Of a DNA stretch of 64,000 bases, positions 1,111-42,906 are shown in pieces. The DNA lies in NCBI RefSeq assembly GCF_030817835.1, contig NZ_JAUSZR010000001.1, positions 4,340,001 to 4,404,000 on the forward strand. Reading direction: 5' to 3'. Source of the stretch: Pseudarthrobacter sp. W1I19 (GTDB lineage Bacteria; Actinomycetota; Actinomycetes; Actinomycetales; Micrococcaceae). The notes beneath the pieces were generated by a model, which was not told the DNA's origin, ran no database searches, and worked only from the letters and a program-made list of their open reading frames with translations. The position numbers and the translations under genes are program-made. How positions within the stretch are numbered: the stretch's first letter is position 1; each line of letters starts with the position of its first letter.

Positions 1111-2099
1111 GGCCGGCCCAGCTTTTCGGAGAAGAAGCCGACGGCGGCAGCAAGGATGGTGTCCAGCTGGTCCTCGGCCCCGAAGAAGCAGTGGTCGCCG
1201 CCCTTGATGGTGACCACTTCATGCTCGACGCCTGCTGCGGCGAGCGCCGCGGCCAGCAGGTCGGTCTGGGAGTGCGGCACCAGGCCGTCACTGTCGCCGT
1301 GGATCAGCAGGAACGGCGCCGCGTCGGCGGTGACATAGCTGACAGGGCTTGCCGCGGCCAGCAGCGCGGGATCGTCCGAGCCGCCCACCAGCATGTACTC
1401 GGGCTGCAGGGACATTCCGGCCGGAACAGCGGCGGTCAGTGCCGGCGGGAACAGTCCGTCCGGAGTGTTGATCGGCGGGATGTCCACCAGCGAGGAGACC
1501 CCGTAGAAGTCGACGACGGCGCTGACGCCGCTGGAGTGCCCCTGCGCTCCGAGCCCGCCGTGCAGGTCCTCCCGGCCACCGGTTAGTCCCAGCAGTGCCA
1601 CGAGGTGGCCGCCGGCGGATTCCCCCCAGGCGCCGAACCGTTCCGGGTCGACGCCGAGGTCCGCCGCATGTTCGCGCAGGTAGCGGACGGCCGCCTTCAG
1701 GTCGTGCAGCTGCGCCGGGAACGGCGCCTCCAGGCAATGCCGGTAGTCCACCGTCGCGCAGGCAATTCCGGCTTCATTGAGCAGCCGGAACACCGAGTCC
1801 GGCACAAAGGTGGGCGGCAGTTCGCGGCGGTCACCCAGCTGGAAGGCTCCGCCGTGGACCCACACCACCAGCGGCACGGGCGCAGTGGCCTGGCGCGGCA
1901 GCCAGATGTCCATTTTGAGCGGCCGGAACCCGATAGCCCGCGCATAGGTGACTTCGCGGTGCACGGCAGAGACGTCCGAAACGTTTTCGGGCACGCCCGG
2001 GGCGTCAAAGACCGGGAACGGGGGAACGTCCACACCTCCGGGGCGGGCAGTATCCAGGGGTGCAGTTTCGTAGACCTCGGTGGCTTCGTTGACACTCAT
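1107..2099 (-). CDS. alpha/beta hydrolase (carboxylesterase-like)
   Basis: A 330-residue esterase of the BD-FAE/carboxylesterase type. HGGAF forms the oxyanion hole, GESAGGH is an intact nucleophile elbow, and GDSDGLVP followed by GGDHCFFG supply the acid and histidine. No signal peptide is seen, so it should act inside the cell. It is the middle gene of a three-gene operon, overlapping the rhamnosidase stop by 4 nt upstream and the next hydrolase by 4 nt downstream. That context suggests removal of acyl groups from imported glycosides, for example acetylated or hydroxycinnamoylated rhamnosides. The substrate is inferred. Confidence 0.88.
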
Positions 2100-24370: not shown

Positions 24371-25657
24371 ATGACCACCGCATCAGCATTCCCCCAGGAC
24401 TTCCTCTGGGGCGTCGCCAGCGCCGGGCACCAGGTGGAGGGGAGCAACCTCAACAGCGACACCTGGTTCCTCGAGCACCTGCCGGGCAGCATGTTCTCCG
24501 AGCCGTCCGGGGATGCGGTGGACCACTACCACCGCTACCGCCAGGACATCGCCCTGATCGCGGACCTCGGTTTCACCAGCTACCGCTTTTCCATCGAGTG
24601 GGCGCGCATTGAGCCGGAGGAGGGGCTGTTTTCCAGGGCCGAACTGGACCATTACCGCCGGATGCTGGAGGCCTGCCACGAGCACGGCCTCACCCCCGTG
24701 GTGACGTTCCACCACTTCACGTCCCCGCGCTGGCTCCTTGCCCTGGGCGGCTGGGAGGGCCCGCGCACGGCTGAACTCTTTGCCCGCTACTGCGACCGGG
24801 TCATGGCGCACATGGGTGACCTCATCGGCGTCGCCTGCACCTTGAATGAACCAAACCTGCCGTGGCTGCTGGAGTCTTTTGGCATTGGCGGCGTGGCCCC
24901 GGAAAACCGCGGTTCGGTACCGGTATGGGCCGCGGCAGCCGAACGCCTTGGCGTGGACGCCAGCACCGTAGCCCCGTTCCAGTTCTGCTCCACCGAGGCC
25001 GGCTTCGACGTGAAGCTGGCAGCGCACCGGGCCGGCACCGCGGCCATCAAGGCGCACCGGCCGGACCTGCTGGTGGGCTGGACGCTGGCCAACTCGGACA
25101 TCCAGTCCATTGACGGCGGCGAGGAACTCGCCGAAAGTGTTCGCCGCGGCGTGAACGAGCGCTTCCTCGAGGCGTCACGCGGGGACGACTTTGTGGGGAT
25201 CCAGACGTACGGCCGCACCGTCTACGGCCCGGACGGGCACGCGCCGGCGCCGGAAGGGGTGCCGACGAACCAGATCGGCGAGGAGATCTACCCGCAGGCC
25301 CTCGAGGCCACCATCCGGGAAGCCCACCGGATCGCTGGACTTCCCGTGATCGTCACGGAAAACGGCCTGGCCACCGAGGACGATACCCAGCGGGTGGACT
25401 ACCTGAAGGCTGCTGTGGAGTGCGTGGCGTCCTGCCTCGACGACGGCATCGACGTCCGCGGCTACATCGCCTGGACGGCCTTCGACAACTTCGAGTGGGT
25501 GTTCGGCTACGGGCCGAAGTTCGGCCTCATCGCCGTGGACCGCGAGACCCAGGAACGGACGCCCAAGGAGAGTGCCCACTGGCTGGGCCGGCAGGCGCAG
25601 GTGCGTACCTCTCAGGCAGAGGACGCCGAGGTCAGCAGGGCACCCCAGCCGGCCTGA
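24371..25657 (+). CDS. beta-glucosidase-like GH1 enzyme
   Basis: A 428-residue cytoplasmic glycoside hydrolase family 1 protein. FLWGVASAGHQVEGSN is the N-terminal signature, TLNEPN carries acid/base Glu160, and VTENG carries nucleophile Glu330, so the active site looks complete. AAAGGAAC precedes the ATG. It is divergent from the rhamnoside importer operon. Removal of rhamnose from a rutinoside leaves a beta-glucoside, which this enzyme could split to glucose and aglycone. The exact substrate is inferred. Its 3' end overlaps the convergent membrane-protein gene by 26 bp. Confidence 0.93.
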   Translation: MTTASAFPQDFLWGVASAGHQVEGSNLNSDTWFLEHLPGSMFSEPSGDAVDHYHRYRQDIALIADLGFTSYRFSIEWARIEPEEGLFSRAELDHYRRMLEACHEHGLTPVVTFHHFTSPRWLLALGGWEGPRTAELFARYCDRVMAHMGDLIGVACTLNEPNLPWLLESFGIGGVAPENRGSVPVWAAAAERLGVDASTVAPFQFCSTEAGFDVKLAAHRAGTAAIKAHRPDLLVGWTLANSDIQSIDGGEELAESVRRGVNERFLEASRGDDFVGIQTYGRTVYGPDGHAPAPEGVPTNQIGEEIYPQALEATIREAHRIAGLPVIVTENGLATEDDTQRVDYLKAAVECVASCLDDGIDVRGYIAWTAFDNFEWVFGYGPKFGLIAVDRETQERTPKESAHWLGRQAQVRTSQAEDAEVSRAPQPA

Positions 25658-27302: not shown

Positions 27303-27331
27303 TGTACTAACCCGGTTGGTTGGTGACACGG
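27303..27331 (+). repeat. left terminal inverted repeat of the IS
   Basis: It begins TGTACTAACCCGG and ends TGACACGG. It matches the complement of 28391-28419 at 23 of 29 positions. Confidence 0.85.
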
Positions 27332-28311
27332 CTGACCGGTGAGGCGCCTTTGAGTGCGGTGTGGGGCCTGTGGTGATTGTAGTACTCGATGAAGTCGGGG
27401 TAGCAGGCTTGGCGTTCAGTTTCTGAGGCATAGGCCTTGGCGTAGGCCCATTCCTCTTGGAGGATGCGGTTGAAGCGCTCGACTTTGCCGTTGGTTTGGG
27501 GTCGGTAGGGCCTGGTGCGTTTGTGCCTGATCCCGGCTACGTTAAGGACAGCGGCGAAGGTGCGGGAGCGGTAGCAGGAGCCGTTGTCCGTGAGCACCCG
27601 CTGGATTTTGACGCCCCTGGCGGCGAACGCGGCGATGGCGTTGCGCATGAACGCCGATGCAGTTTCCTTGGTTTCGTCGGGCAGGATCTCGGAGTAAACA
27701 AACCGGGAATGGTCATCCACTGCGTGATGCAGGAATGAGTAGCCCCGGACCTGGCCGCGGTATTTGGCCTGGCCTTCACGGAGGTTCCGTGCCCGGGAGT
27801 TCGCGTTGCCCTGCACCCGCCCGTGGACACGGTGTCCGCCGCCGTCGGGGATTCGGCCGAGTTTCTTGATGTCCACGTGGATCATTTCGCCTGGCCAGGC
27901 ATATTCGTACCGACGCGCCCGGTCCCGGCCGCGGACCCTGATCCCTGTGGCCGGGTCGGTGAAGCGCAGTGGAGGGCAGAGGTAGCGGGTCAGGATGCGG
28001 TGGACCGTGGAGATGTTCAGGTGCAGGTGGTAGGCGATCCGGGCCGGACCCCAGCGCCGGCTCACGCGCAGTCCCAGCACGCGCCGCTCAGTGCGCATCT
28101 CCGTTCGGTGGGGGCAGGTCAAGGGCCGGCTCCGGCGGTCCTCCAGACCAGCCTCACCCAGTTCCCGATAACGGGCGGACCAGCGCACCGCGGTCGGGAC
28201 GGAGACGTTGAATCTTTCAGCGGCACGTCGCAAAGGCCAGCCATCAACCACGATGCAGCGGGCCAGCTGCAGACGTCCCGAATGAGCCAGAAACGCGTTA
28301 CGGTGGGACAC
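27307..28311 (-). CDS. IS481-family transposase
   Basis: A 334-residue DDE transposase. An N-terminal helix-turn-helix (WPLRRAAERFNVSVPTAVRWSARYR) is followed by the rve-type catalytic core, with acidic residues in MIHVDIKKLG (about 146), LTDNGSCYRS (about 242) and TNGKVERFNRIL (about 278), and a C-terminal FIEYYNHHRPHTAL. It starts at GTG 28311 behind AGGAGG. The stop codon lies inside the left terminal repeat. The frame is unbroken, so the enzyme may be active. Confidence 0.94.
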   Translation of the reverse strand: MSHRNAFLAHSGRLQLARCIVVDGWPLRRAAERFNVSVPTAVRWSARYRELGEAGLEDRRSRPLTCPHRTEMRTERRVLGLRVSRRWGPARIAYHLHLNISTVHRILTRYLCPPLRFTDPATGIRVRGRDRARRYEYAWPGEMIHVDIKKLGRIPDGGGHRVHGRVQGNANSRARNLREGQAKYRGQVRGYSFLHHAVDDHSRFVYSEILPDETKETASAFMRNAIAAFAARGVKIQRVLTDNGSCYRSRTFAAVLNVAGIRHKRTRPYRPQTNGKVERFNRILQEEWAYAKAYASETERQACYPDFIEYYNHHRPHTALKGASPVSRVTNQPG

Positions 28312-28390
28312 GAGGACCTCCTGGTTTGTGTTTGCTCTCGACAAGCACCACACAACACCCGGAGGTCCTCTTATTGCAGCAAATCAATCC

Positions 28391-28420: not shown

Positions 28421-29635
28421 CTAGTGCGTTATTGGCGCCCGCGTGCTTGTGCCTGATGACGGCAACCCGCCATCGCTTGATGACGCCTGACGCGCCAGGT
28501 AACTGAACAACGCCCGAATCCCGAAGGTCCACGGCTCGATCTCCTCGGCCCTTCGCGTCCGGTTGACCAGTGCCCCCAGTTGGGGGCTGCTGATGGTGAC
28601 GACGTCCCCGGGCTTGTGGGTGAAGCCGAGCCCTTCGGCATCGCGGTCCTGCGTTGGAGCGAACAGCGTGCCGGTGAACAGGGCGAACCCATCAGGGTAT
28701 TGGTGGTGGCGGCCGTGGGCAGCACCGATGAGCTCCTCGAAGGGGCGGCTAATCCGGGCCAGGCTGTTGCGGCCTTCCAGCCGGTAACCGTCCGCGCCTT
28801 CCACGGTGAGGCTGAGTGCCTCCGACCGCAGCGAGTCCAGCGTGAAGTCCTGGTGGAAGAGCCGGACCAGGGGGCCGATGGCGCAGGACCCGTTGTTATC
28901 CTTGGCCATGCCCAGCAGCAGTGCGCTGCGGCCCTCGACGTCCCGGAGGTTGACGTCGTTCCCGAGCGTTGCGCCGCGGACCTTCCCGGCAGAGTCGGCA
29001 ATGAGCACCAGTTCCGGTTCGGGGTTGTTCCACGAGGAGAAGCCGGGAATGCCGACGTCGGAGCCGAAGCCCACGGAGGACAGCAGCGGGGCCTTGGTGA
29101 ACACTTCCGGATCGGGACCCAGGCCCACCTCAAGGTACTGCGACCACATCCCCTGGGCCGACAACACCTCCTTGACCTCCTGCGCCTGTTCCGACCCGGG
29201 CCGGACATCGCCCAGGTTCCCGCCCAGCGCTTCGGCAACCGTCCTGCGGACTTCTGCCGCCCGGTTGAAATCACCGCCACACCGCTCTTCGATGACCCGC
29301 TCCACCATGCTTTCCACAAACGTCACTCCGCACGCCTTGACCACCTGGAGGTCGATCGGGGACAGCAGATGCGGCCTGTTCCGGTCCCCGTCCAGCGAGG
29401 CAGCCGCCAGTTCGGCGAAGTCCCACCGCATGCCGCCTGCTTGCAGCACCAGCTCGGCGGGCTTCGGGTGGTCCATGAGCTCGGCAACTGTACGGACCTC
29501 GGGGGTGAGGTCAAAGACCTCGTTACCGCGGACGGTGATGACCCGCGGCCCTTGGGATACCGGATCCCAGGCGCGGCCGACGAGGACCGCATCTCCTGCG
29601 TCCATGGGGAGGATGTGCTGCACAGTGGTGGTCAT
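28421..29635 (-). CDS. fumarylacetoacetate hydrolase (FAH) family protein
   Basis: A 404-residue protein with the FAH fold in its C-terminal half (KAPLLSSVGFGSDVGIP, SWNNPEPELVLIADSAGKVRGATLGNDVNLRDVEGRSALLLG), including Glu/Asp residues of the metal site. Family members hydrolyse C-C bonds of diketo acids or dehydrate 2-keto-3-deoxy sugar acids. It overlaps the sugar-acid dehydratase by ATGA, so the likely substrate is the 2-keto-3-deoxy (or diketo) acid made by that enzyme. The last residues are Ser/Thr-rich, and the TAG stop lies in the target duplication of the IS. Confidence 0.88.
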   Translation of the reverse strand: MTTTVQHILPMDAGDAVLVGRAWDPVSQGPRVITVRGNEVFDLTPEVRTVAELMDHPKPAELVLQAGGMRWDFAELAAASLDGDRNRPHLLSPIDLQVVKACGVTFVESMVERVIEERCGGDFNRAAEVRRTVAEALGGNLGDVRPGSEQAQEVKEVLSAQGMWSQYLEVGLGPDPEVFTKAPLLSSVGFGSDVGIPGFSSWNNPEPELVLIADSAGKVRGATLGNDVNLRDVEGRSALLLGMAKDNNGSCAIGPLVRLFHQDFTLDSLRSEALSLTVEGADGYRLEGRNSLARISRPFEELIGAAHGRHHQYPDGFALFTGTLFAPTQDRDAEGLGFTHKPGDVVTISSPQLGALVNRTRRAEEIEPWTFGIRALFSYLARQASSSDGGLPSSGTSTRAPITH

Positions 29636-30834
29636 ATGCTGTCCGCACTTACGGGAACGCCTTCAAGGTTGAAGTACGAACAGGCATCTGGCGGCCGGAT
29701 ATCAGCGACCGCGTCATTGAAGATCCGCATCGGATGCGGCGTGTACGGGCGCTCTGCAATGGCGTCAAAGTTCAGTTCGATTCCCAGCCCCACCGCTTCC
29801 GGGATGAGGACGTCGCCGTCCTCCGTCAGCTGGAGGCGTTCATTGGAGATCTCGCTCCGCCACGGAACATCTGTGGCCATGATCTCCAGATACCGGAAAT
29901 TGGGCAGCGCAGCGCCCAGCTGCAGCGTCGCGGCGGTGCTCAACGGTCCGCTGGGATTATGCGGTGCGAACGGAACGTAATGTGCCGCCGCGAGAGTGGA
30001 GATGAACGACAGCTCCAGCAGGCCGCCGGCATGGGTGACGTCGGGCTGGATGTAGTCCACGGCGTTCCGGGCGAGTACGGGAACAAAGGTGTTCCGTCCG
30101 AACCACCGCTCCCCGGCAGCGATGGGTACGGGGGACTTGGAACGGACTTCGATCAGCGCGTCGATCCCATCCGGCGGGCACGGCTCCTCGAAGAAGACCG
30201 GCTGGAACTGCTCAAGTTCCCGGGCAGCGCGGATTGCGGTGGGAACGTCGAACCGGCCGTGGCCTTCAATGAAGAGCTCAACATCATCCCCCACCGCCTC
30301 CCGCACGGCGGCCACGGGTTCAAGCATGCGCCGGAGGTCCCTCGGATCAAGAGTGAGGTCCGCGGCTTCGAACGGGTCCCATTTGAGTCCGCGGAAACCT
30401 TGGGCGACGGTCCGGACGGCGGCTTCGGCGAAGTCGTCGGGAGATGTGGCTCCCGAAAACCAGCCATTGGCATATGCACGGACCCTGTCCCGCACCTGGC
30501 CGCCCAGCATGCGGTGGACCGGGACCCCGAGGACACGCGCCGAGACATCCCACATCGCCATTTCGAGGGCGCTGAGCGCCGTCATCGATACCGGTCCACC
30601 GCGCCAATAGGCATCACGGTTAAGTTCGTAGAGGGTGTGCGAGATCCGGGTTGGGTCCTTGCCCCGGACCGCGTCGGCGAGAACCGCGACCGCGCCGCGG
30701 ACGGCATGTTCTTGCCCTTCAAGCGTTGCCTCAGCCACGCCGGTGATGCCGGCGTCCGTGCTCAGCCGGACAAAGATGAGGTTTGTCCTGTAAAAATCAA
30801 CGACGACGGTCTCGAGGTTGGTGATCTTCATCAT
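29632..30834 (-). CDS. enolase-superfamily sugar-acid dehydratase
   Basis: A 400-residue mandelate racemase/muconate lactonizing enzyme family protein that resembles galactonate dehydratases. Metal ligands are in LFIEGHGRF, FFEEPCPPD and IAAGERWFG. A catalytic His is in FAPHNPSGPLST, and the N-terminal capping domain holds YWRGGPVSMTALSALEMAMWD. Such enzymes remove water from an aldonate to give a 2-keto-3-deoxy acid. It starts 7 nt after the lacI stop and is coupled to the FAH-family gene. The sugar acid (rhamnonate, galactonate, arabinonate or another) cannot be read from sequence. ATG 30831 is a possible alternative start. Confidence 0.9.
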   Translation of the reverse strand: MMKITNLETVVVDFYRTNLIFVRLSTDAGITGVAEATLEGQEHAVRGAVAVLADAVRGKDPTRISHTLYELNRDAYWRGGPVSMTALSALEMAMWDVSARVLGVPVHRMLGGQVRDRVRAYANGWFSGATSPDDFAEAAVRTVAQGFRGLKWDPFEAADLTLDPRDLRRMLEPVAAVREAVGDDVELFIEGHGRFDVPTAIRAARELEQFQPVFFEEPCPPDGIDALIEVRSKSPVPIAAGERWFGRNTFVPVLARNAVDYIQPDVTHAGGLLELSFISTLAAAHYVPFAPHNPSGPLSTAATLQLGAALPNFRYLEIMATDVPWRSEISNERLQLTEDGDVLIPEAVGLGIELNFDAIAERPYTPHPMRIFNDAVADIRPPDACSYFNLEGVPVSADSI

Positions 30835-30841
30835 TGAAACC

Positions 30842-31909
30842 TCATCCTTTTGATATTCTCGCGGGAGCCGCCGTCGAGCCCCTGACGATCAGCTGCGTGG
30901 CAAGTTCCACGCGATGGGAATCCAGGGTCTCCCCCCGCGCCTGGCGCAGAAGTGACCGCAACGCAGCCCGCCCCATTTCCTCCAGGGGCTGGGCAACGGA
31001 GCTGAGCGACGGGACGGACTCCTCGCCCTGCTTAGTTCCGTCAAAGCCAATCACGCTGATGTCCTCCGGGACCCGGATGCCATGCCGCCCGGCTTCGGCA
31101 AGAACACCCAGCGCAATCGTGTCGCTTGCGGCAAAAATTGCGGTGGGAAGCTGGTCCAGGCGCAGCAGGGCCTGAAGCCCGGCAACCCCGCTCTCCCTGC
31201 GGAACCTGCCGCCGGAAACAATGTATTCCGGGTCCACCGTGATGCCACGGGCCATCAGGGCGGCCATGTAGCCGTGCAGGCGCGCCTGGTTGCATTCGGC
31301 CCTCTCGATGCCGCCGATGTAGGCGATCCGCCGATGCCCCAAATCCAGCAGATGTTCGGTGGCCGCCTTGCCGCCGGCCCAGTTTGTCGCTCCCACGCTG
31401 ACTACATCGGCTGAGGGCGGATTGAGGGGGTCGATAACGACGACGGGAATCTTGCGGCGCCGGAATGCCTGCAGCTGTGCCTCGCTGAAAGCTGACGTCA
31501 CCACGATCATCCCTGCCCGCCCTTCGTCCAGCATGCGCTGTGCCCGGCGCTCCGGGCTGCGCAGGTTGGACAGCGCTGGACCTGTGACGCTGACCAGGAT
31601 CTCGACGTCGGCACCTGCGGCGAACTGCAGTATCCCGTTGAGGACCTCAATCATGTAGGCGGAGTCAAGAACGTCGATGACCACCTCCACGATGGTGCCC
31701 GTCTCCGCGGCGGAGCGCCGCTGCAGCGGGGACTGGTATCCGGCCTGTTCCAGTGCCTCCAGGACACGGGCCCGGGTCTCAGGGGAAACGTCCAGGCGGC
31801 CGTTAACCACCTTGGACACCGTGGGCGCCGACACCCCGGCCTGCTGCGCCACCATGGCCAGGGTGGGCTTGGCCACTGCCGGCTTGGGCTGCGAGGTTTT
31901 CGTTGCCAT
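30842..31909 (-). CDS. LacI-family transcriptional regulator
   Basis: A 355-residue repressor. The N-terminal helix-turn-helix is LAMVAQQAGVSAPTVSKVVNG, with the hinge around VLEALEQAGYQSP. A periplasmic-binding-like effector domain follows (HLLDLGHRRIAYIGG, AIFAASDTIALGVLAEAG, ISVIGFDG). ATG 31909 is preferred over the preceding TTG. A LacI-type palindrome at 31917-31932 touches its start region, and a perfect one lies at 32067-32084, so it probably represses itself, the dehydratase genes and the divergent importer operon. Confidence 0.93.
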   Translation of the reverse strand: MATKTSQPKPAVAKPTLAMVAQQAGVSAPTVSKVVNGRLDVSPETRARVLEALEQAGYQSPLQRRSAAETGTIVEVVIDVLDSAYMIEVLNGILQFAAGADVEILVSVTGPALSNLRSPERRAQRMLDEGRAGMIVVTSAFSEAQLQAFRRRKIPVVVIDPLNPPSADVVSVGATNWAGGKAATEHLLDLGHRRIAYIGGIERAECNQARLHGYMAALMARGITVDPEYIVSGGRFRRESGVAGLQALLRLDQLPTAIFAASDTIALGVLAEAGRHGIRVPEDISVIGFDGTKQGEESVPSLSSVAQPLEEMGRAALRSLLRQARGETLDSHRVELATQLIVRGSTAAPARISKG

Positions 31910-31916
31910 CAAAGTT

Positions 31917-31932
31917 TTCGCAATCTTTCGAA
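31917..31932. promoter_or_regulatory. LacI-type operator O2, at the lacI start
   Basis: TTCGCAATCTTTCGAA is a 16-bp palindrome with one mismatched pair and the same spacing as the perfect site at 32067-32084. It lies 8 bp before the lacI start, which fits autorepression. Confidence 0.6.
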
Positions 31933-32016
31933 GATGTCCGAGCCTTCATTCTGCGGAATACCACGACCCTTGGTCAAGAGCCGTGAAAGCGTCAAAAATA
32001 ATGGGACGTTTACCCC

Positions 32017-32045
32017 TTGACGACGCGGGATATGAGCTTTAGTTT
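32017..32045 (+). promoter_or_regulatory. possible sigma-70-type promoter P1, importer operon
   Basis: TTGACG and TAGTTT are spaced by 17 bp, about 100 bp upstream of the binding-protein start. The -35 is good and the -10 is moderate. A second arrangement with -10 at 32087-32092 fits the regulator sites better. Confidence 0.4.
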
Positions 32046-32049
32046 AGAC

Positions 32050-32065
32050 CGTGACCTAAATCACG
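32050..32065. promoter_or_regulatory. CRP/GlxR-like activator site
   Basis: CGTGACCTAAATCACG is a palindrome matching 10 of 12 defined bases of TGTGANNTANNTCACA, with only the outermost pair changed (still symmetric). Its centre is 41.5 bp before a start expected from the -10-like GATAGT at 32087-32092, which is the class II activator position. Confidence 0.6.
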
Positions 32066-32066
32066 C

Positions 32067-32084
32067 GTTCGAAATGTTTCGAAC
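32067..32084. promoter_or_regulatory. LacI-type operator O1
   Basis: GTTCGAAATGTTTCGAAC has perfect 8-bp arms around a TG centre. It directly follows the CRP-like site and lies just before the -10-like GATAGT at 32087-32092. Repressor binding here would block the core promoter of the importer operon. Confidence 0.75.
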
Positions 32085-32093
32085 AAGATAGTC

Positions 32094-32108
32094 GGAGCCA
32101 GAGGCTCC
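32094..32108. promoter_or_regulatory. short hairpin in the importer leader
   Basis: GGAGCCAGAGGCTCC has 6-bp perfect arms and a 3-base loop. It sits at or just after the predicted transcription start, about 40 bp before the start codon. A role in RNA stability or as a further operator is possible. Confidence 0.35.
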
Positions 32109-32147
32109 AACTTCACTTGCAAAGAAGCAAACTCAGATGGAGAAGCA

Positions 32148-33476
32148 ATGAAGCAGCCCCAGACCTCCCGCCGCTCTTTCCTCGCCCTTGCTGCCCTCAC
32201 CCCGTTCGCCGTTGCGGCGACCACCGCGTGCGGGACATCCGGACCGGGAAGCTCCAGCGGTGGCGGAGGCGCCAGCATGTGGTACCTGTCCGGCGAACCG
32301 AACCAGACCACCATGCAGAAGGCCGTAGACGCCTTCAATTCGGCGAACGGAGACAACAAGATCGCCGTGACCTACTTCCAGAACGACGCCTACAAAACCA
32401 AGATCAAGACCGCCATTGGCGCCGGCCAGGCCCCCACCATCATCTACGGCTGGGGCGGCGGCACCCTGAAGACCTACGCCGAGGCCAACCAGGTGGATGA
32501 CCTGACGGGATGGTTTGAGGAGAACCCGGACCTGAAGAAGAAATTCTTTCCCTCCTCTTTCGGTGCAGCCACGGTTAACGGCAAGATCTACGCCCTGCCC
32601 AACCAGTACGTCGCCCCGATCGTGCTGTTTTACAACAAGGAACTGTTCGAGAAGGCCGGCGTCCAGCCGCCGAAGACCTGGGACGACGTCATGTCGCTGG
32701 TCAAGACCTTCAATGACATGGGCGTGGCACCCTTCTCACTGGGCGGACAGTCCCGCTGGACCTCCATGATGTGGCTCGAATACCTGCTGGACCGCATCGG
32801 CGGCCCCGGCGTCTTCAACGCCATCTTCGAAGGCAAGCCCAATGCGTGGCTGGACCCTGCCGTAATTGAGACCGGCACAAAGATCCAGGAACTCGTCTCG
32901 GCCGAAGGGTTCATCAAGGGCTTCTCCTCCATCACCGCAGACTCCAACGCCGACCAGGCCCTCCTGTTCACGGGCAAGGCAGCCATGATGTTGCACGGCA
33001 CCTGGACCTTCGGCGGCATGAAGAAGAACGGCCAGAACTTCGTCCAGAACGGAAAACTGGGCTTCGTCCAGTTCCCCACCGTTCCCGGCGGCAAGGGCGA
33101 CCCCAAGAACGGCGTCGGAAACCCGGCCCAGTACATGTCGATTTCCTCGAAGGCCAGCGACAAGGAAAAGGAGTCTGCGAAGAAGTTCTTCAAGGACGGC
33201 ATCCTGACCGAAACGGTGATCGATACCTACATCAACTCCGGGTCGGTGCCCATCGTTAACGGCATCGAAGACAAGCTGGACACGTCTCCCGACAAGGACT
33301 TCCTGAACTTCGTCTACGACCTGGCCAAGAACGCCCCGAACTTCCAGCAGTCCTGGGACCAGGCCCTGAGCCCCACCGCAGCCGAGGCCCTGCTGAACAA
33401 CATCGACCAGCTCTTCCTGAAGTCGATCACGCCGCAGCAGTTCGCCGAGAACATGAACGCCACCCTCGGAAAATGA
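32148..33476 (+). CDS. sugar-binding lipoprotein (SBP family 1), Tat-type signal
   Basis: A 442-residue extracellular solute-binding protein. The N-terminus TSRRSFLALAALTPFAVAA then TAC combines a twin-arginine motif with a lipobox. A Ser/Gly-rich linker follows, then the sugar-binding fold (KTKIKTAIGAGQAPTIIYGWGGG, YALPNQYVAPIVLFYNKELFEKAG, GKAAMMLHGTWTFGGM). GGAGAAG precedes the ATG. It heads an operon of two permeases, two oxidoreductases, a TIM barrel and a ThuA-like protein. The ligand is likely a disaccharide or glycoside. Confidence 0.93.
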   Translation: MKQPQTSRRSFLALAALTPFAVAATTACGTSGPGSSSGGGGASMWYLSGEPNQTTMQKAVDAFNSANGDNKIAVTYFQNDAYKTKIKTAIGAGQAPTIIYGWGGGTLKTYAEANQVDDLTGWFEENPDLKKKFFPSSFGAATVNGKIYALPNQYVAPIVLFYNKELFEKAGVQPPKTWDDVMSLVKTFNDMGVAPFSLGGQSRWTSMMWLEYLLDRIGGPGVFNAIFEGKPNAWLDPAVIETGTKIQELVSAEGFIKGFSSITADSNADQALLFTGKAAMMLHGTWTFGGMKKNGQNFVQNGKLGFVQFPTVPGGKGDPKNGVGNPAQYMSISSKASDKEKESAKKFFKDGILTETVIDTYINSGSVPIVNGIEDKLDTSPDKDFLNFVYDLAKNAPNFQQSWDQALSPTAAEALLNNIDQLFLKSITPQQFAENMNATLGK

Positions 33477-34408
33477 GTAACGCCGTCTCCACCGCGCCCC
33501 GGGCCGCCACTGTTCGAACCGGCGCGGCTTCAACCGACAAGCGCAAGGCTGCCCTCGCGTGGCTGACGCTGCCCGCGCTGTTCTTCTTCCTGGTGTTCGC
33601 CGTGGTGCCGCTGGTGGGGGTGCTTATCCTGAGCTTCGCCAGCTGGGACGGCATCGGCGCCATCGGTGCCGCGGGCATGGGCAACTGGTTCTCGGTGCTG
33701 GCGGACCCGGGCCTATACAACGCGCTGGGGCTGACCTTCCTGATCATGATCGTCTCCTGGCTGGTCCAGACGCCCATCAGCCTCCTCCTGGGGGTCTTCA
33801 CGGCAGGCAGCCAGCGGTACAGGGCCGCCCTGGCGGTGTTGTACTTCCTGCCGCTGCTGCTCTCATCGGCTGCAGTGGCCATTGCCTTCAAAGCACTGCT
33901 GGATCCGAACTTTGGCCTGGCCACCGGGCTGGGCCTGCCATTCCTGGCACAGGACTGGCTGGGGGTCCCACACCTTGCCCTGGGCCTGGTGATTTTCGTG
34001 ATCGCCTGGCAGTTCGTCCCGTTCCACACGCTCATCTACCAGGGCGGCGTGCGGCAGATCCCTAAATCGCTCTACGAAGCAGCCCAGATCGATGGGGCGG
34101 GAATTATCAAGCAGTTCTTCCACATCACTCTGCCCCAGTTGAAGTACACCATCATCACCTCCTCCACCCTCATGGTGGTGGGCTCCCTGACGTACTTCGA
34201 CCTGATTTTCGTCCTCACCGGCGGCGGGCCGGGAAACTCCACCCGCATCCTGGCCCTGGACATGTACCTTCGGGGCTTCCGGGCCAACCTGATGGGTCCC
34301 GCAAGCGTTATCGCCGTCATTCTCGTAGTCATCGGCCTCGGTCTTGCCTTGTTCCTCCAGCGCCTCGGAGGCAAGGACAAGCAGGGCAGCCAATTGGAAG
34401 GTCTGTAG
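33473..34408 (+). CDS. sugar ABC permease, MalF/UgpA type
   Basis: A 311-residue membrane protein with about six spans (LPALFFFLVFAVVPLVGVLIL, ALAVLYFLPLLLSSAAVAIAF). The coupling motif is YEAAQIDGAGIIKQFFHITLPQLK. It overlaps the binding-protein stop by 4 nt. No ATPase gene is in the operon. Actinobacterial sugar importers often share a multitask ATPase of the MsiK type encoded elsewhere. Confidence 0.93.
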   Translation: MSNAVSTAPRAATVRTGAASTDKRKAALAWLTLPALFFFLVFAVVPLVGVLILSFASWDGIGAIGAAGMGNWFSVLADPGLYNALGLTFLIMIVSWLVQTPISLLLGVFTAGSQRYRAALAVLYFLPLLLSSAAVAIAFKALLDPNFGLATGLGLPFLAQDWLGVPHLALGLVIFVIAWQFVPFHTLIYQGGVRQIPKSLYEAAQIDGAGIIKQFFHITLPQLKYTIITSSTLMVVGSLTYFDLIFVLTGGGPGNSTRILALDMYLRGFRANLMGPASVIAVILVVIGLGLALFLQRLGGKDKQGSQLEGL

Positions 34409-34409
34409 G

Positions 34410-35315
34410 GTGAGCATCGTACTGAAACGCAGCCCGCAGGAGGCAGCAGCCGGCTCCCCCGCGGGCGCGGGAGACCATAAGGCCGGGCTGGCTTCCCGGC
34501 TGAGACGGCTGAACATTCCGGGTGGCCTGGGCGGGTGGATCTGGCTGGCCATCATCATTCTTCCGGTCTACTACGTGGTCATTACCAGCCTGAAGACCCA
34601 GGAGGGCTACTTCGGCCAGAACCCGCTGGCACTTCCTGCCTCACCTACGCTGGAAAACTACCAGTTGGTTCTTGAGGCGGACTTCGCAACATATTTCATG
34701 AACAGCGCCATCGTCACGCTGGGTTCCGTGGTTCCGACCGTGCTGATCTCCTTTATGGCCTCGTTCGCCATCGTCCGGGGCAGCGGCAGGTTCCTCAAGC
34801 TGGTCAACGGCATGTTCCTGATGGGCCTGGCCATCCCGCTTCAAGCAACGATCATCCCGATCTACCTGATGATCATCAGGCTCAATCTCTACGACAGCCT
34901 GCTCGCGCTGATGCTTCCGTCCATTGCTTTCGCCATCCCGTTGACGGTGCTGATCCTGTCCAACTTCATCCGCGACGTGCCGAACGAACTGTTCGAATCC
35001 ATGCGGCTGGACGGCTGCAGTGAGTGGCAGACCATGTGGCGGCTTGCCCTGCCCCTGACCCGTCCGGCGATCGTCACCGTGGCCATCTATAACGGACTGC
35101 ATGTCTGGAACGGCTTCCTGCTTCCGCTGGTCCTCACCCAGAGCCCCGGCCTGCGCGTCCTTCCCCTGGGCTTGTGGACCTTCCAGGGGGAGTTCAGCGT
35201 CAACATCCCGGCCGTGCTTGCCTCGGTGGTACTGAGCACGTTGCCGATCCTGGTGCTCTACGTCGTCGGCCGCCGCCAGCTGCTCGCCGGCCTCACCGCC
35301 GGCTTCAGCAAGTAG
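34410..35315 (+). CDS. sugar ABC permease, MalG/UgpE type
   Basis: A 301-residue membrane protein with about six spans and the coupling motif FESMRLDGCSEWQTMWRLALPLTRPA. It starts at GTG 34410, one base after the previous stop, with GGAAGG upstream. A longer frame reading through the previous gene is not needed. It forms the pore with the preceding permease. Confidence 0.92.
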   Translation: MSIVLKRSPQEAAAGSPAGAGDHKAGLASRLRRLNIPGGLGGWIWLAIIILPVYYVVITSLKTQEGYFGQNPLALPASPTLENYQLVLEADFATYFMNSAIVTLGSVVPTVLISFMASFAIVRGSGRFLKLVNGMFLMGLAIPLQATIIPIYLMIIRLNLYDSLLALMLPSIAFAIPLTVLILSNFIRDVPNELFESMRLDGCSEWQTMWRLALPLTRPAIVTVAIYNGLHVWNGFLLPLVLTQSPGLRVLPLGLWTFQGEFSVNIPAVLASVVLSTLPILVLYVVGRRQLLAGLTAGFSK

Positions 35316-35327
35316 AAAGGAACTTTC

Positions 35328-36536
35328 ATGACCGAATCCAAACCCCTGCGCGTCGGCATGGTGGGGTATGCCTTTATGGGTGCGGCGCACTCCCACGCCT
35401 GGCGCACCGCACCCCGGTTCTTTGATCTGCCGCTGCAGCCCCAGCTGACAGCGGTGTCCGGAAGGAATGCCGACGGCGTCCGGACCGCTGCGGACAAGCT
35501 CGGCTGGGAGTCGGTTGAGACAGACTGGCGGCGCCTGATCGAACGGGACGACATCGACCTGATCGATATCTGCACGCCGGGCGATACCCACGCCGGGATT
35601 GCCATTGCCGCCCTGGAGGCCGGTAAGCACGTGCTGTGCGAAAAGCCGCTGGCCAATTCCGTGGAGGAAGCAGAGAGGATGACCCTTGCGGCGGAAACCG
35701 CCGTCAAGCAGGGCGTGGCCTCGATGTGCGGCTTCAGCTACCGACGCACCCCCGCCCTGGCACTGGCTAAGCGGTTCGTGGAACAGGGCAGGCTCGGCGA
35801 GATCCGGCACGTCCGCGCGCAATATCTGCAGGACTGGCTCTCGGACGAGAATGCCCCCATGACGTGGCGGCTGGACAAGAGCAAGTCCGGGTCCGGCTCG
35901 CTGGGTGATATCGGAGCGCACAGCATCGACGCCGCCCAATGGGTCACCGGACTGAACATCACCGGCGTCTCGGCACTGCTCGAAACGTTCGTCCCGGAGC
36001 GGCCGCTCGCCGGGGACCTCGTGGGCCTGGGCGGGCACGGCGACCTCAGCAGCGACACTCCCCGCGGCAGCGTCACGGTGGACGATGCGGCCATCTTCAG
36101 TGCCCGCTTTGAAGACACCAAGTTCGCCGGCGGTGCTGCTTCCGCGGGAGCCGTGGGCGTCTTCGAAGCCACCCGCTACGCGCTGGGCCGCAAGAACGCC
36201 ATGCGCCTGGAAGTGAACGGAAGCAAGGGGTCCCTGGCCTTCGACTTCGAGGAAATGAACGTCCTGTCCTTCTACGACGCAGCCGAATCCCCCGACGCCG
36301 GCTTCCGCAGGATCTTCGTTACCGAACCCGAGCACCCGTACGCGGGGAACTGGTGGCCCACCGGCCACGGGCTCGGGTACGAACACGGCTTCACCCACCA
36401 GGTGGTGGACCTGGTCACGGCCATCGGCGAAGGCCGCCAGCCGGAACCCTCCTTCGCCGATGCCCTCCAGGTCCAGCGCGTCCTGGCAGCCGTGGAGTCC
36501 AGCGCCGCCAACTCCAGCCAGTGGCAGAAAGTCTAG
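35328..36536 (+). CDS. Gfo/Idh/MocA-family oxidoreductase 1
   Basis: A 402-residue NAD(P)-dependent oxidoreductase. The Rossmann motif [17 protein letters not shown] is at residues 9-25, the conserved CEKPLANS supplies the catalytic Lys, and [20 protein letters not shown] is typical of sugar dehydrogenases of this family. Members include glycoside 3-dehydrogenases such as ThuB and the DgpA/CarA enzymes. Together with the TIM-barrel and ThuA-like neighbours it is a candidate for oxidising a sugar at C3 before non-hydrolytic bond cleavage. AAAGGAAC precedes the ATG. Confidence 0.9.
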
Positions 36537-36541
36537 AAACG

Positions 36542-37546
36542 ATGACACGACCAATCACTCTTTTCACCGGCCAATGGGCCGACCTGCCGTTCGAGGAGGT
36601 GGCCCGGCTCGCCGGCGAGTGGGGCTTTGACGGGCTGGAAATCGCCTGCTGGGGAGACCACCTGGACCCGCGCCGGGCTGCGGAGGACGACAACTACCTC
36701 CAGGACCGGCTGGACATCCTGGAAAAGAACAACCTCCAGGTCTTCGCCATCGCCAACCACCTCACCGGCCAGGCAGTCTGCGACGATCCCATCGATGAAC
36801 GCCACCAGGGCATCCTGTCCGCCGAAATCTGGGGCAACGGCGAACCCGAGGGGGTCCGCCAGCGGGCTGCCGAGTCGATGAAGGACACGGCACGGGCCGC
36901 TGCCCGCCTCGGTGTGAAAACCGTCACCGGGTTCACCGGGTCCTCCATCTGGAAGGCCGTCGCCATGTTCCCGCCCGCCCCGGGGTCAATGATCGACGCC
37001 GGCTACCGGGACTTCGCGGACCGCTGGAACCCCATCCTGGACGTCTTCGAGGAAGAGGGGGTCCGGTTCGCGCTGGAGGTCCACCCCTCCGAAATCGCTT
37101 ACGACTACTGGACCACCAAACGCACCCTGGAGGCCATCGGGCACCGCCGGAGCTTCGGGCTGAACTTCGACCCGTCCCACTTCATCTGGCAGGACCTGGA
37201 CCCGGTGATGTTCCTGCAGGACTTCGCCGAACACATTTTCCACATCCACGTGAAGGAATCCGTCCGCCAGCTCGATGGCCGCAACGGACGGCTGGGGTCC
37301 CACCTTGCCTGGGCCGATCCCCGCCGCGGCTGGGATTTCGTCACCGCGGGCCACGGGGACGTGCAGTGGAACCGGATCTTCCGGACCCTGAACGCGATCG
37401 GCTATGACGGCCCCACCAGCATCGAATGGGAGGACGCCGGCATGGACCGCCTCATCGGAGCCCCGCAGGCGCTGGCCATGGTCCAGGAACTGGCCCGGAT
37501 CGCCCCGCCCGCAGCGGCCTTCGACGCCGCCTTCTCCAGCCGCTGA
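36542..37546 (+). CDS. xylose-isomerase-like TIM-barrel protein
   Basis: A 334-residue sugar phosphate isomerase/epimerase-type barrel. Metal-binding acids and histidines appear in [42 protein letters not shown] and [15 protein letters not shown] 36542 follows the upstream stop by 5 nt. The longer frame that runs back inside the oxidoreductase is not real. Family members isomerise or epimerise sugars, and related barrels act as 3-keto-glycoside lyases or C-glycoside deglycosidases. The second role would match the flanking dehydrogenases. Confidence 0.9.
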
Positions 37547-37597
37547 CCCGACCTGTGCCGGTAAAACAAACGCCGGCAGCCAACCAAAGGAAACCCA

Positions 37598-38296
37598 ATG
37601 ACAGAACCCAAGAATGCCCTGGTGGTCCGCGGCGGCTGGGACGGCCACCAGCCGTACGAGGCCACCGAGCTGTTCATCCCCTACCTCAAGGACAACGGCT
37701 ACGATGTCCGCGTGGAGGAATCCCCGAAGGTTTACGCCGACGCCGAGTACATGGCAGGCGTGGACCTGATCCTGCAGTGCATGACCATGACCACCATCGA
37801 AAAGGACGAGTTCGCCGGGCTGCGTACGGCGGTGGAAAACGGCACCGGCCTGGCCGGTTGGCACGGCGGGATTGCCGATTCCTACCGCAACAACTCCGAC
37901 TACCTGCACCTGGTCGGCGGCCAGTTCGCCTGCCACCCGGGCAAGCACCCGGACGAGTGCATCGGCGAGCAGTCGGACAACTACGTTCCCTACACCGTGA
38001 ACATGCTGCCCGCAGCCGCGGAGCACCCCATCACCCAGGGCATCAAGGACTTCGACCTGGTCACCGAACAGTACTGGGTCCTCTCCGACGACTACATCGA
38101 CGTCCTGGCCACCACCACCCAAAAAGTCCGGGAATGGGACCCCTGGAACCGCGAAGTCACCTCCCCCGCCGTCTGGACCCGCCAATGGGGCAAGGGCCGC
38201 ATCTTCGTCGCCACCCCCGGCCACCGCGTCGAAATCCTCCAGGACACCAACGTCCGCACCATCATCGAAAGGGGCCTGCTGTGGGCAAGCCGTTGA
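37598..38296 (+). CDS. ThuA-like protein
   Basis: A 232-residue class-I-glutamine-amidotransferase-like (ThuA) domain protein. Features are VVRGGWDGHQP at the N-terminus, GTGLAGWHGGIADSYRNNSDYLHLVGGQFACHPG in the middle and EQYWVLSDDY later. In Sinorhizobium, ThuA acts with the oxidoreductase ThuB in trehalose and related disaccharide catabolism through 3-keto sugars. AAAGGAAAC lies before the ATG. It overlaps the next oxidoreductase by 16 nt. The chemistry of ThuA proteins is still incompletely defined. Confidence 0.9.
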   Translation: MTEPKNALVVRGGWDGHQPYEATELFIPYLKDNGYDVRVEESPKVYADAEYMAGVDLILQCMTMTTIEKDEFAGLRTAVENGTGLAGWHGGIADSYRNNSDYLHLVGGQFACHPGKHPDECIGEQSDNYVPYTVNMLPAAAEHPITQGIKDFDLVTEQYWVLSDDYIDVLATTTQKVREWDPWNREVTSPAVWTRQWGKGRIFVATPGHRVEILQDTNVRTIIERGLLWASR

Positions 38297-39408
38297 AAGT
38301 AGGAATCGTTGGCTGCGGCGCCATCATCGCGCAGTACCTCACCAACTTCCGCAAGCTCCATGACCTCGAACTCGTAGCGGTGGCGGACCTTGATCCCGCA
38401 CGCGCGAAGGCTGTGGCGGAGCAGTACGACGGCGTCCGCGCCGTTTCCGTGGACGAACTCCTCGCGGCGGACGACGTCGAACTGGTCCTGAACCTCACCA
38501 TCCCCGCGGCGCACGCCGAGGTGGCACTGAAAGCCATCGCAGCAGGCAAAAGCGTGTACGGCGAGAAGCCCCTCGCCGCCACCACTGCGGAGGCACGCAC
38601 GGTTCTGGAGGCAGCGCGGGAGGCAGGCGTCGTCGTCGGCTGTGCTCCTGACACGGTACTGGGAACCGGCATCCAGACCGCCCGCAAGGCGATCGATGAC
38701 GGGCTGATCGGCGCGCCCATCTCCGCCTCCGCCACCATGGTGACCCCCGGCCATGAGCGCTGGCACCCGAACCCGGACTTCTACTACCAGCCCGGCGGCG
38801 GCCCGCTCCTGGACATGGGCCCCTACTACGTGACCGCCCTGGTGACACTGCTGGGCCCGGTGGTCTCGGTGACGGGCGCCGCGAGCCACACCCGCAACGA
38901 ACGGACCATCGGCTCCGGCCCACGGCAGGGCGAAAAGGTCCCCGTGGCCATCGACTCCCACGTCACCGGCGTCCTGACCCACGCCTCCGGCGCGCTCTCC
39001 ACCCTGTTCATGAGCTTCGACGCCGTGAAGTCCAAGTCCCCCAACATCGAGATCCACGGCGAACACGGATCTCTGGTGGTGCCGGACCCCAACCACTTCG
39101 ACGGCGAGGTTCAGCTGTTCTCCTTGGGCGCCGATGCGTGGGAGACCCTTCCCGTATCCGCAGGCTACGTTGACTCGGGGCGCGGCTTCGGCATCGCCGA
39201 CCTGGCTTCCACCCCGGAAGGCGCCGAGCCCCGCGCGGGCGGCACCTTGGCCTTCCATGTCCTTGAGGTCATGGAGTCAGTGCTCGAATCAGCCCACACC
39301 GGGTCCGCGGTACGCATCAGCAGCACGGCGGAGCGGCCCGCCGGCGTCGAGCTGACCGTCCTCACCGAGGACATCCAGGAGCTCCAGGCGCAGGAAGCCG
39401 CTTCCTAA
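38281..39408 (+). CDS. Gfo/Idh/MocA-family oxidoreductase 2
   Basis: A 375-residue NAD(P)-dependent oxidoreductase, clearly different from the first. It has Rossmann VGIVGCGAIIAQYL, the catalytic Lys in GEKPLAATT, and NPDFYYQPGGGPLLDMGPYYVTAL. Start GTG 38281 overlaps the ThuA-like gene by 16 nt and has AAAGGGG upstream. An in-frame TTG at 38293 is an alternative. It is the last gene of the operon and is followed by a strong hairpin. Two such dehydrogenases in one operon suggest an oxidation step and a later reduction step. Confidence 0.9.
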   Translation: MGKPLKVGIVGCGAIIAQYLTNFRKLHDLELVAVADLDPARAKAVAEQYDGVRAVSVDELLAADDVELVLNLTIPAAHAEVALKAIAAGKSVYGEKPLAATTAEARTVLEAAREAGVVVGCAPDTVLGTGIQTARKAIDDGLIGAPISASATMVTPGHERWHPNPDFYYQPGGGPLLDMGPYYVTALVTLLGPVVSVTGAASHTRNERTIGSGPRQGEKVPVAIDSHVTGVLTHASGALSTLFMSFDAVKSKSPNIEIHGEHGSLVVPDPNHFDGEVQLFSLGADAWETLPVSAGYVDSGRGFGIADLASTPEGAEPRAGGTLAFHVLEVMESVLESAHTGSAVRISSTAERPAGVELTVLTEDIQELQAQEAAS

Positions 39409-39537: not shown

Positions 39538-39987
39538 GTGACCTCCAGCCCCCTTTCCGACGCCCGCCTCCGTGAGCTTACGGAACTTCGCCGCGTCAAG
39601 GACCGGATCGACCGGGAGTACGCGCAGCCGCTGGACGTCGAATCCCTGGCCCGCGGCGTCCACATGTCCGCCGGACACCTGAGCCGCCGCTTCAAAGCCG
39701 CGTACCAGGAATCGCCCTACAGCTACCTCATGACCCGGCGCATCGAGCGGGCCATGGCACTGCTCCGCCGCGGTGACCTTTCCGTCACGGAGGTGTGCTT
39801 CGCCGTCGGCTGTTCATCGTTGGGAACCTTCAGCACCCGCTTCACGGAGCTGGTGGGCATGCCGCCCAGCGTCTACAAACAGGAAGCGGAAATGTCGACG
39901 GCGGGCATCCCCGCCTGCGTGGCGAAACAGGTCACCAGACCGGTCAGGAATCGAGAAGCACCCGCACCGGAGCCGCAACTAGCATGA
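39538..39987 (+). CDS. small AraC-family regulator
   Basis: A 149-residue protein that is mostly the AraC DNA-binding domain: two helix-turn-helix units around LDVESLARGVHMSAGHLSRRFKAAY and LSVTEVCFAVGCSSLGTFSTRFTELVG, with no effector domain. It starts at GTG 39538. Its stop overlaps the next gene by ATGA, so it is coupled to a VOC-family protein. The short AraC plus glyoxalase arrangement is common in actinobacteria and suggests local control. Confidence 0.9.
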   Translation: MTSSPLSDARLRELTELRRVKDRIDREYAQPLDVESLARGVHMSAGHLSRRFKAAYQESPYSYLMTRRIERAMALLRRGDLSVTEVCFAVGCSSLGTFSTRFTELVGMPPSVYKQEAEMSTAGIPACVAKQVTRPVRNREAPAPEPQLA

Positions 39988-40406
39988 CTGCCATGAACAA
40001 GATCAGCATTTCCTCAACCTTCCTTCCGCATACCGATCCGGACGCATCCCTGGCGTTCTACCGCGACGCCCTGGGCTTCGAAGTCCGCAACGATGTTGGC
40101 CGCGGCACCATGCGCTGGATCACCGTAGGCCCTGCCGGGCAGCCGGACGTGTCCATCGTCCTGCACCCGCCGGCCGTGGACCCCGGCATCACCGACGACG
40201 AACGCCGCACCATCGCCGAAATGATGGCGAAGGGCACCTACGCCACGGTTATCCTGTCCGCCCCGGACGTGGACGCCGCGTTCGCCTCGGTGGAGGCCAC
40301 CGGGGCGGACGTGGTCCAGGAACCCGTCGACCAGCCCTACGGAATCCGCGACTGCGCCTTCCGCGACCCGGCCGGCAACACCGTCCGCATCAACCAGCAG
40401 CCCTGA
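39984..40406 (+). CDS. VOC (glyoxalase/bleomycin-resistance) family protein
   Basis: A 140-residue vicinal-oxygen-chelate protein with two beta-alpha-beta-beta-beta units (FLPHTDPDASLAFYRDALGFEVRND, YGIRDCAFRDPAGNTVRINQQ). Members sequester antibiotics such as bleomycin or catalyse metal-dependent chemistry. ATG 39984 overlaps the AraC stop, and ATG 39993 is also possible. Its position between AraC and UvrA2 genes suggests a drug-tolerance role. Confidence 0.88.
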   Translation: MTAMNKISISSTFLPHTDPDASLAFYRDALGFEVRNDVGRGTMRWITVGPAGQPDVSIVLHPPAVDPGITDDERRTIAEMMAKGTYATVILSAPDVDAAFASVEATGADVVQEPVDQPYGIRDCAFRDPAGNTVRINQQP

Positions 40407-40500
40407 GCTGGGAGGATAGGAACCAGCGGCACGAGGGGGAGGCTGCGGGCGCGGCCCTCCCCCTCCCAGGACATATCGCAGCCCCACAGATGGAGACCCG

Positions 40501-42906
<2,406 letters not shown>

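Follow-up and report, generated by a model that had tools for sequence, protein, structure and literature searches.

How a glycoside might be taken apart by an operon that encodes no glycosidase is the question raised by a locus of Pseudarthrobacter sp. W1I19 (contig NZ_JAUSZR010000001.1, positions 4,340,001–4,404,000; this whole stretch of 64,000 nucleotides was analysed and is referred to as the window). Seven genes beside a LacI-family regulator specify the substrate-binding protein (SBP) and two permeases of an ATP-binding cassette (ABC) importer, a Gfo/Idh/MocA dehydrogenase (G1), a TIM barrel, a ThuA-family protein and a second dehydrogenase (G2). The operon is very probably real, conserved and of the 3-keto-glycoside type. 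According to the route proposed here it would, under the control of LacI, import a glycoside and split it in four steps, redox-neutral overall and non-hydrolytic. G2 would oxidise C3 of the sugar with NAD+ to give a 3-keto-glycoside; ThuA would cleave this at C1, most likely by beta-elimination, releasing the aglycone and a 2-hydroxy-3-keto-glycal; the barrel would add water to the glycal; and G1 would reduce the resulting 3-keto-sugar to the free sugar, using the NADH of the first step. The net outcome would be hydrolysis without a hydrolase. We give this route, with the four proteins as assigned, a probability of about one half, each reaction and the division of labour between G1 and G2 being drawn from analogy.

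The operon, its barrel and its first dehydrogenase

The seven genes, grouped into one operon by the sequence-only reading, proved in an open reading frame check of the window to be all in frame, on the same strand and closely packed. Their products exceed the Pfam cut-offs for SBP_bac_1, BPD_transp_1 (both permeases), GFO_IDH_MocA (G1 and G2), AP_endonuc_2 and ThuA. The two dehydrogenases are dissimilar, as had been supposed, aligning at 30% over 154 amino acids (AA). A Pfam scan of the operon proteins revealed no glycosidase, no ATPase and no recognised beta-eliminase (OGE, LgdB1 or CGD); the importer is presumably served by a shared ATPase encoded elsewhere. Two GH78-type rhamnosidase genes (2096–4648 and 16159–18417) and a GH1 gene (24371–25657) are found in the window, in keeping with the earlier remark that glycosidases lie near the operon and not in it.

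The genome collection was searched with the barrel and the best 80 of 588 candidate loci were kept; every count out of 80 refers to these. The order LacI-SBP-permease 1-permease 2-G1-barrel-ThuA-G2 is intact in 17 of them. LacI adjoins the operon in these 17 loci, which have all eight genes, and also in L027. Four Curtobacterium loci show the order G1-ThuA-G2-barrel. Two loci titled Vibrio cholerae 35D (L036) and Bacillus sp. AZ43 (L098) look actinobacterial and probably derive from mislabelled or contaminated assemblies.

Among solved structures the barrel is closest to 2zds (533 bits), which bears the PDB name putative DNA-binding protein, and to 8ro4 (150 bits, E 8e-43), named 2-hydroxy-3-keto-glucal hydratase; the next match is at E 6e-5. 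Residues E179, H181, E184, D188, D210, H213, K238, E295 and E297 are invariant in all 88 aligned rows, 8ro4 included. On this sequence evidence the barrel is of the hydratase type, a homologue of 2-hydroxy-3-keto-glycal hydratase. From its name and length, 8ro4 is taken to be AtHYD of Agrobacterium tumefaciens, to which the accessible part of PMC10628242 ascribes a preliminary hydratase role, with no activity on 3-keto-phlorizin. DgpC/CarC, partners in glycoside cleavage, had been suggested as comparators for the barrel. Membership of that type was rejected, BLASTP at E 1e-3 giving no match to the two CGD-alpha-like barrels of a C-glycoside cluster elsewhere in the genome (L105).

It has also been considered that ThuA might hydrolyse the 3-keto-glycoside directly, with no glycal formed, leaving the barrel to epimerise or isomerise the freed 3-keto-sugar. 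A precedent exists in the DUF1080 proteins, proposed to hydrolyse 3-keto substrates in the part of PMC9007349 available; the nearest named solved relative of the barrel is, however, a glycal hydratase whose residues it keeps, and direct hydrolysis is judged improbable. In L062, L068, L077, L087, L096 and L100 a barrel of the 2zds family occurs without an adjacent G1, beside a conserved cluster of 6–7 genes which we presume to be ebo-like.

The best solved relatives of G1 are 4h3v (571 bits) and the levoglucosan dehydrogenase (LGDH) 6a3f (293 bits), with DgpA, its suggested comparator, far behind at 87 bits. By sequence G1 is a member of the LGDH branch, although against the LevoglcsnDh model (NCBIfam NF052479) its 353.7 bits fall under the cut-off of 650. 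Together with the match of the barrel to a 3-keto-glucal hydratase, this placement supports the sequence-only proposal of non-hydrolytic 3-keto-glycoside catabolism. An lgd-type pathway for levoglucosan or another anhydrosugar would suit a G1 of that branch too. Levoglucosan is used by the related Paenarthrobacter, and longer barrels, LgdB3 and LgdB4, known by description, occur in its lgd loci (PMC10066097, in its accessible portion). No protein of the genome reaches 650 bits, however, and the operon has a single barrel of 334 AA and therefore no short barrel of the LgdB1 type. The levoglucosan pathway proper was rejected because the LevoglcsnDh cut-off is missed by G1 and by the whole genome, and the wider anhydrosugar reading is very improbable.

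Catabolism of inositol or a related cyclitol is the least probable of the alternatives. A Gfo/Idh dehydrogenase with a PF01261 barrel is the iol combination, and scyllo-inositol dehydrogenase 5ya8 matches G1 at 179 bits. The barrel, however, scores 40 bits against IolE (cut-off 290), and G1 and G2 score 112 and 69 bits against IolG (cut-off 355); with values this far under the cut-offs, both assignments and the inositol pathway were rejected. The inositol comparison had been named in advance as the one that could overturn the 3-keto-glycoside reading, which survived it. Relatives of G1 and the barrel are, moreover, paired with C-glycoside and OGE-type genes.

One such pairing is in the same genome (L105, 4270000–4289500), where paralogues of G1 and the hydratase come after genes for a GMC oxidase, for two CGDB subunits and for additional barrels of PF01261; the cluster also carries importer genes. 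Its gene content is that described, in the accessible text of PMC10646112, for the glycoside 3-oxidase (G3Ox) cluster of P. siccitolerans. Gene clusters c24–c29, matched to L105 by BLAST, are present in 7 of the 80 loci. Novosphingobium (L116) has GMC, DUF6379 and isomerase genes with a G1-like Gfo (31%) and a barrel (62%). The Ketogulonicigenium operon (L228) runs LacI-HYD-Gfo-GMC-subunit-OGE, and its single Gfo scores 157 bits as G1 vs 26.6 as G2; the Xanthomonas Gfo (L229) is likewise G1-like (139 bits vs 38.5). G1 and the L228 Gfo align at 32% over 415 columns, and L228 is likened to the published pathway by operon type only. In L228 the oxidation can be left to the GMC oxidase, which makes reductase the best reading for its Gfo and, by extension, for G1; by this analogy G1 would be a 3-keto-sugar reductase.

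ThuA and the slot beside G2

At E 1e-60, G2 was used to search genomes from its class (394) and phylum (149), and 93 G2-family loci outside the window's own genome were extracted together with some 3 kb of flanking DNA at either end. Their stop-to-stop frames were scored with profiles for window-type ThuA, rhizobial-type ThuA, OGE, HYD, G1, G2, XylA and CGDB; to count as the partner, a gene had to share the strand of G2 and lie no more than about 2 kb from it. The partner was an AtOGE-like barrel in 42 loci and window-type ThuA in 40, while 11 had neither and none had both. L202, where one reading frame carries both domains, was counted as OGE, hence there are 41 separate OGE partners. Going by the midpoints of the frames, 39 of these 41 partners and 39 of the 40 ThuA partners are upstream of G2. 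AtOGE residues H132, H134, D163, H189 and E233 are kept in all 41 separate OGE-like partners, and such partners match the AtOGE structure 8BVK (L106, E 9e-23; Paracoccus L121, E 1e-38). They are read as relatives of AtOGE, and ThuA therefore occupies a slot that is elsewhere held by an eliminase of a characterised type. The gene order is G1-HYD-OGE-G2 in L177 and L178 and G1-HYD-ThuA-G2 in the window; a paralogous operon of the same genome (L106, 3816000–3835500) is arranged OGE-G2-G1-HYD and has a ROK-like regulator. By analogy with the AtOGE-type eliminase beside G2, ThuA is a likely candidate for the cleaving enzyme, on what we regard as even odds. The alternation of ThuA and OGE offers a specific and cheap handle on the chemistry of ThuA.

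When the 12 loci placed in the neither class at the first pass were searched by tblastn at E 1e-4, no ThuA match was obtained. The OGE matches seen in L169, L179, L187 and L225 were ascribed to query frames overrunning into neighbouring genes, an overrun observed directly for the L185 and L226 queries. Matches to ThuA were also present in 95 plasmid records; among the 36 records listed for both proteins, ThuA and G2 lie at most 300 bp apart in 35. The plasmid hosts are Rhizobium, Sinorhizobium, Paracoccus, Deinococcus, Paenibacillus, Niallia and haloarchaea. In three further plasmid records with G2 (CP044012, CP119410 and CP131057) an AtOGE match directly adjoins it.

The window ThuA was modelled with the ThuA fold at a predicted local distance difference test (pLDDT) score of 92.9, and it scores above the PF06283 gathering threshold. 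Against PDB sequences it gave no match at E 0.001, and at E 10 only matches of E 0.44 or worse. One search returned more than 5,000 PF06283 relatives, which carry the database names 'type 1 glutamine amidotransferase' and 'ThuA domain-containing'. Among the papers listed by the literature searches, none was seen to assign the family a reaction, as judged by titles and abstract openings and with subscription papers mostly outside. A wider and more tentative reading, to which we give somewhat less than even odds, is that the window ThuA subfamily forms a new class of 3-keto-glycoside lyase with a glutamine-amidotransferase-like fold, with H89 at the position of the amidotransferase cysteine, serving a pentoside route. 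Next to dehydrogenases of the G2 type, such a lyase would replace the Mn-dependent TIM-barrel eliminase in Actinobacteria, Proteobacteria, Firmicutes, Deinococcus and perhaps haloarchaea. If this is true, one more unrelated fold joins the 3-keto-glycoside cutters, and many ThuA-dehydrogenase gene pairs are explained.

G2 itself is distant to DgpA (E 5e-18). Three G2 matches contain one in-frame stop each (G008:C11:1008913-1010022, G243:C1:206192-207286 and G423:C12:16140-17255), so some strains may be losing the gene.

Several observations weigh against the proposed route and the part given in it to ThuA. ThuA and OGE differ in Pfam family and fold, so the case for a common reaction is built mainly on their common position, and one position can be filled by enzymes of different steps. 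In a thinned G2 tree (n=63) the ThuA- and OGE-linked proteins fall largely into two clades, with three label changes, and well-supported branches force two partner changes. A single clade of OGE-linked G2 proteins was not rejected (approximately unbiased test, p-AU 0.084); the choice of partner may therefore reflect, in part, an ancient split of G2 into two branches. In a larger tree (104 rows, 'neither' counted) the ThuA label needed 9 changes and the OGE label 7; L223, whose G2 is fragmented, was excluded from both trees. At the score limits used, no G1 or hydratase lies within about 3 kb of 36 of the 40 ThuA-G2 pairs and 34 of the 42 OGE-G2 pairs, and such pairs may therefore work without this back end. 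Rhizobial-type ThuA occurs near the OGE loci L182 and L226, so that the absence of loci with both partners is valid for the window ThuA subfamily only; it also occurs near the ThuA locus L136. The relatives of ThuA and G2 are on opposite strands in the haloarchaeal L122 and 3.4 kb apart in one of the 36 plasmid records. Lastly, G1 is present in 61 of the 80 barrel loci and ThuA in just 23, and LgdB2, a comparable barrel, can carry out elimination itself, with low affinity (accessible part of PMC7676230).

The last two points speak for a different arrangement, still a 3-keto-glycoside pathway, in which a bifunctional barrel like LgdB2 does both elimination and hydration and ThuA has another step such as the handling of the aglycone or anomer; barrel loci with G1 and without ThuA are common. 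Against this, an OGE-like eliminase or ThuA stands beside G2 in 82 of the 93 loci, and a dedicated partner therefore seems to be needed; the inactivity of AtHYD on 3-keto-phlorizin also tells against a barrel of this type acting alone. We consider the arrangement less likely than the four-step route with ThuA as the cleaving enzyme.

Known pathways and the nature of the sugar

The A. tumefaciens glucoside pathway (GlycDH-AtOGE-AtHYD-Gfo) is proposed to proceed by oxidation, elimination, hydration and reduction (PMC10628242, in the part available). The window has the hydratase-type barrel and the same proposed reaction order, and plasmid operons of the A. tumefaciens type carry a G1-like Gfo; unlike that pathway, the window operon is without OGE and GMC oxidase and has ThuA in the OGE slot and an extra Gfo, G2. 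The levoglucosan pathway of Bacillus smithii (lgdA-lgdB1-lgdB2-lgdC; PMC7676230, in the portion accessible) likewise has two Gfo proteins, a PF01261 barrel, LacI and an ABC importer, LgdB2 and LgdC being compared by description only. The window differs in the LevoglcsnDh score of G1, in the missing LgdB1-type barrel and in the presence of ThuA. The CarA/CarBC, DgpABC and PsG3Ox clusters resemble the locus through the G1-barrel paralogues of L105, whereas the window operon itself has no CGDB beta subunit, CarC-type alpha subunit or GMC oxidase.

The rhizobial thuEFGKAB genes serve trehalose, maltitol and sucrose isomers. The thu locus of S. meliloti (L133) is like the window in having an ABC importer, a ThuA-family protein and a Gfo dehydrogenase with LacI alongside; the window adds the TIM barrel and the second dehydrogenase. 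A thuAB-like operon was inferred to form 3-keto-maltose in the accessible part of PMC4765114. The rhizobial proteins, which the sequence-only reading had put forward as comparators, turned out to be poor ones. Window ThuA has 21.4% identity to S. meliloti ThuA and orthology was rejected; the closer relative, with 55.6% to the S. meliloti protein and with Gfo and LacI adjoining, is encoded at about 191 kb in the genome that holds the window (L108:8937-10822). Orthology with ThuB was also rejected, G1 aligning with the S. meliloti protein at 28% over 338 AA and G2 at 36% over 97 AA.

With regard to the sugar, several hints suggest a pentose. A xylA cluster is present in 18 of the 80 loci, a raw count drawn from eight named genera and one 'unverified Bacillus' record. 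One representative xylA scores 659 bits against TIGR02631 (cut-off 447). In Kribbella, xylA sometimes lies between G1 and the barrel; in two Rhodobacterales (Palleronia and Paracoccus) the order is GH43-UgpC-G2-ThuA-xylA, and xylA adjoins G2 in L185 and L187. The FAH-family protein of the divergent gene pair next to lacI matches PDB 9kkt (E 7.5e-116) and 2q18, a 2-keto-3-deoxy-D-arabinonate dehydratase (E 3.9e-19), and the dehydratase of the pair scores 299.9 bits with the galactonate dehydratase model, under its cut-off of 311. It had been suggested that this pair could process a sugar acid released by the operon. The pair shares the operator gap, but at the score limits used the dehydratase turned up in just 1 of the 80 loci and the FAH gene not at all; a pair so lineage-specific speaks against a pentose, as does the distance of the genome's own xylA, at 1.71 Mb. 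Because that xylA is far off and the count of xylA clusters is a raw one, the glycone is kept as a hint only, and a pentoside, the proposed glycone being xylose-like, is given about one chance in three. In one Kribbella locus (L070:4397-9778), a protein of 1793 residues with ThuA, GSDH, PKD, DUF1349, GH43_C2 and CBM6 domains is encoded between xylA and the barrel.

Gene layout, regulator and flanking genes

Table 1. Features of the operon and its surroundings, with positions in the window
Feature	Position	Strand	Remarks
FAH-family protein, 2-keto-3-deoxy-pentonate-dehydratase-like	28421-29635	-	divergent; accessory
Enolase-superfamily sugar-acid dehydratase	29632-30834	-	divergent, downstream of lacI; accessory
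LacI-family regulator	30842-31912	-	Pfam LacI/Peripla_BP_3
Second operator-like site, before lacI	31916-31933	.	3 mismatches to long form, 1 to core
Operator-like palindrome GTTCGAAA-TG-TTTCGAAC, before SBP gene	32067-32084	.	perfect 8-bp arms
SBP, carbohydrate ABC importer (SBP_bac_1)	32148-33476	+	above Pfam cut-off; kept in 17/80 loci
ABC permease 1	33473-34408	+	Pfam BPD_transp_1
ABC permease 2	34410-35315	+	Pfam BPD_transp_1
G1, Gfo/Idh/MocA dehydrogenase (GFO_IDH_MocA), levoglucosan-dehydrogenase branch; proposed 3-keto-sugar reductase	35328-36536	+	
TIM barrel (AP_endonuc_2, PF01261), ATG start; proposed 2-hydroxy-3-keto-glycal hydratase	36542-37546	+	
ThuA-family protein; proposed 3-keto-glycoside cleaving enzyme	37598-38296	+	PF06283 159 bits
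G2, second Gfo/Idh/MocA dehydrogenase, GTG start; proposed NAD-dependent glycoside 3-dehydrogenase	38281-39408	+	

Within the operon the SBP and permease 1 genes overlap by 4 bp and those of ThuA and G2 by 16 bp. The 14-base core TTCGAAANNTTTCGAA of the operator-like sites, with at most one mismatch allowed, occurs at two sites only in the 4.81-Mb genome, both in the gap between lacI and the SBP gene. LacI is therefore read as a dedicated local regulator, which would control the operon through the palindromes of this gap. A palindrome of the CGAAA/TTTCG type is among the top palindromes of the corresponding gap in 13 of 17 relatives, and is not among them in L026, L029, L034 and L044.

An IS481-type transposase is encoded at 27307-28353, with the GH1 and aldose-epimerase genes on one side and the FAH gene on the other. 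The dehydratase of NamB4 (L021) adjoins relatives of the window genes at 11833 and 13786, so that the region from 14.6 to 29.6 kb of the window has been rearranged or inserted. Just 3' of the operon (39538-42906) lie genes for an AraC-type regulator, a small, presumably glyoxalase-like protein and a UvrA-like ABC ATPase (801 AA).

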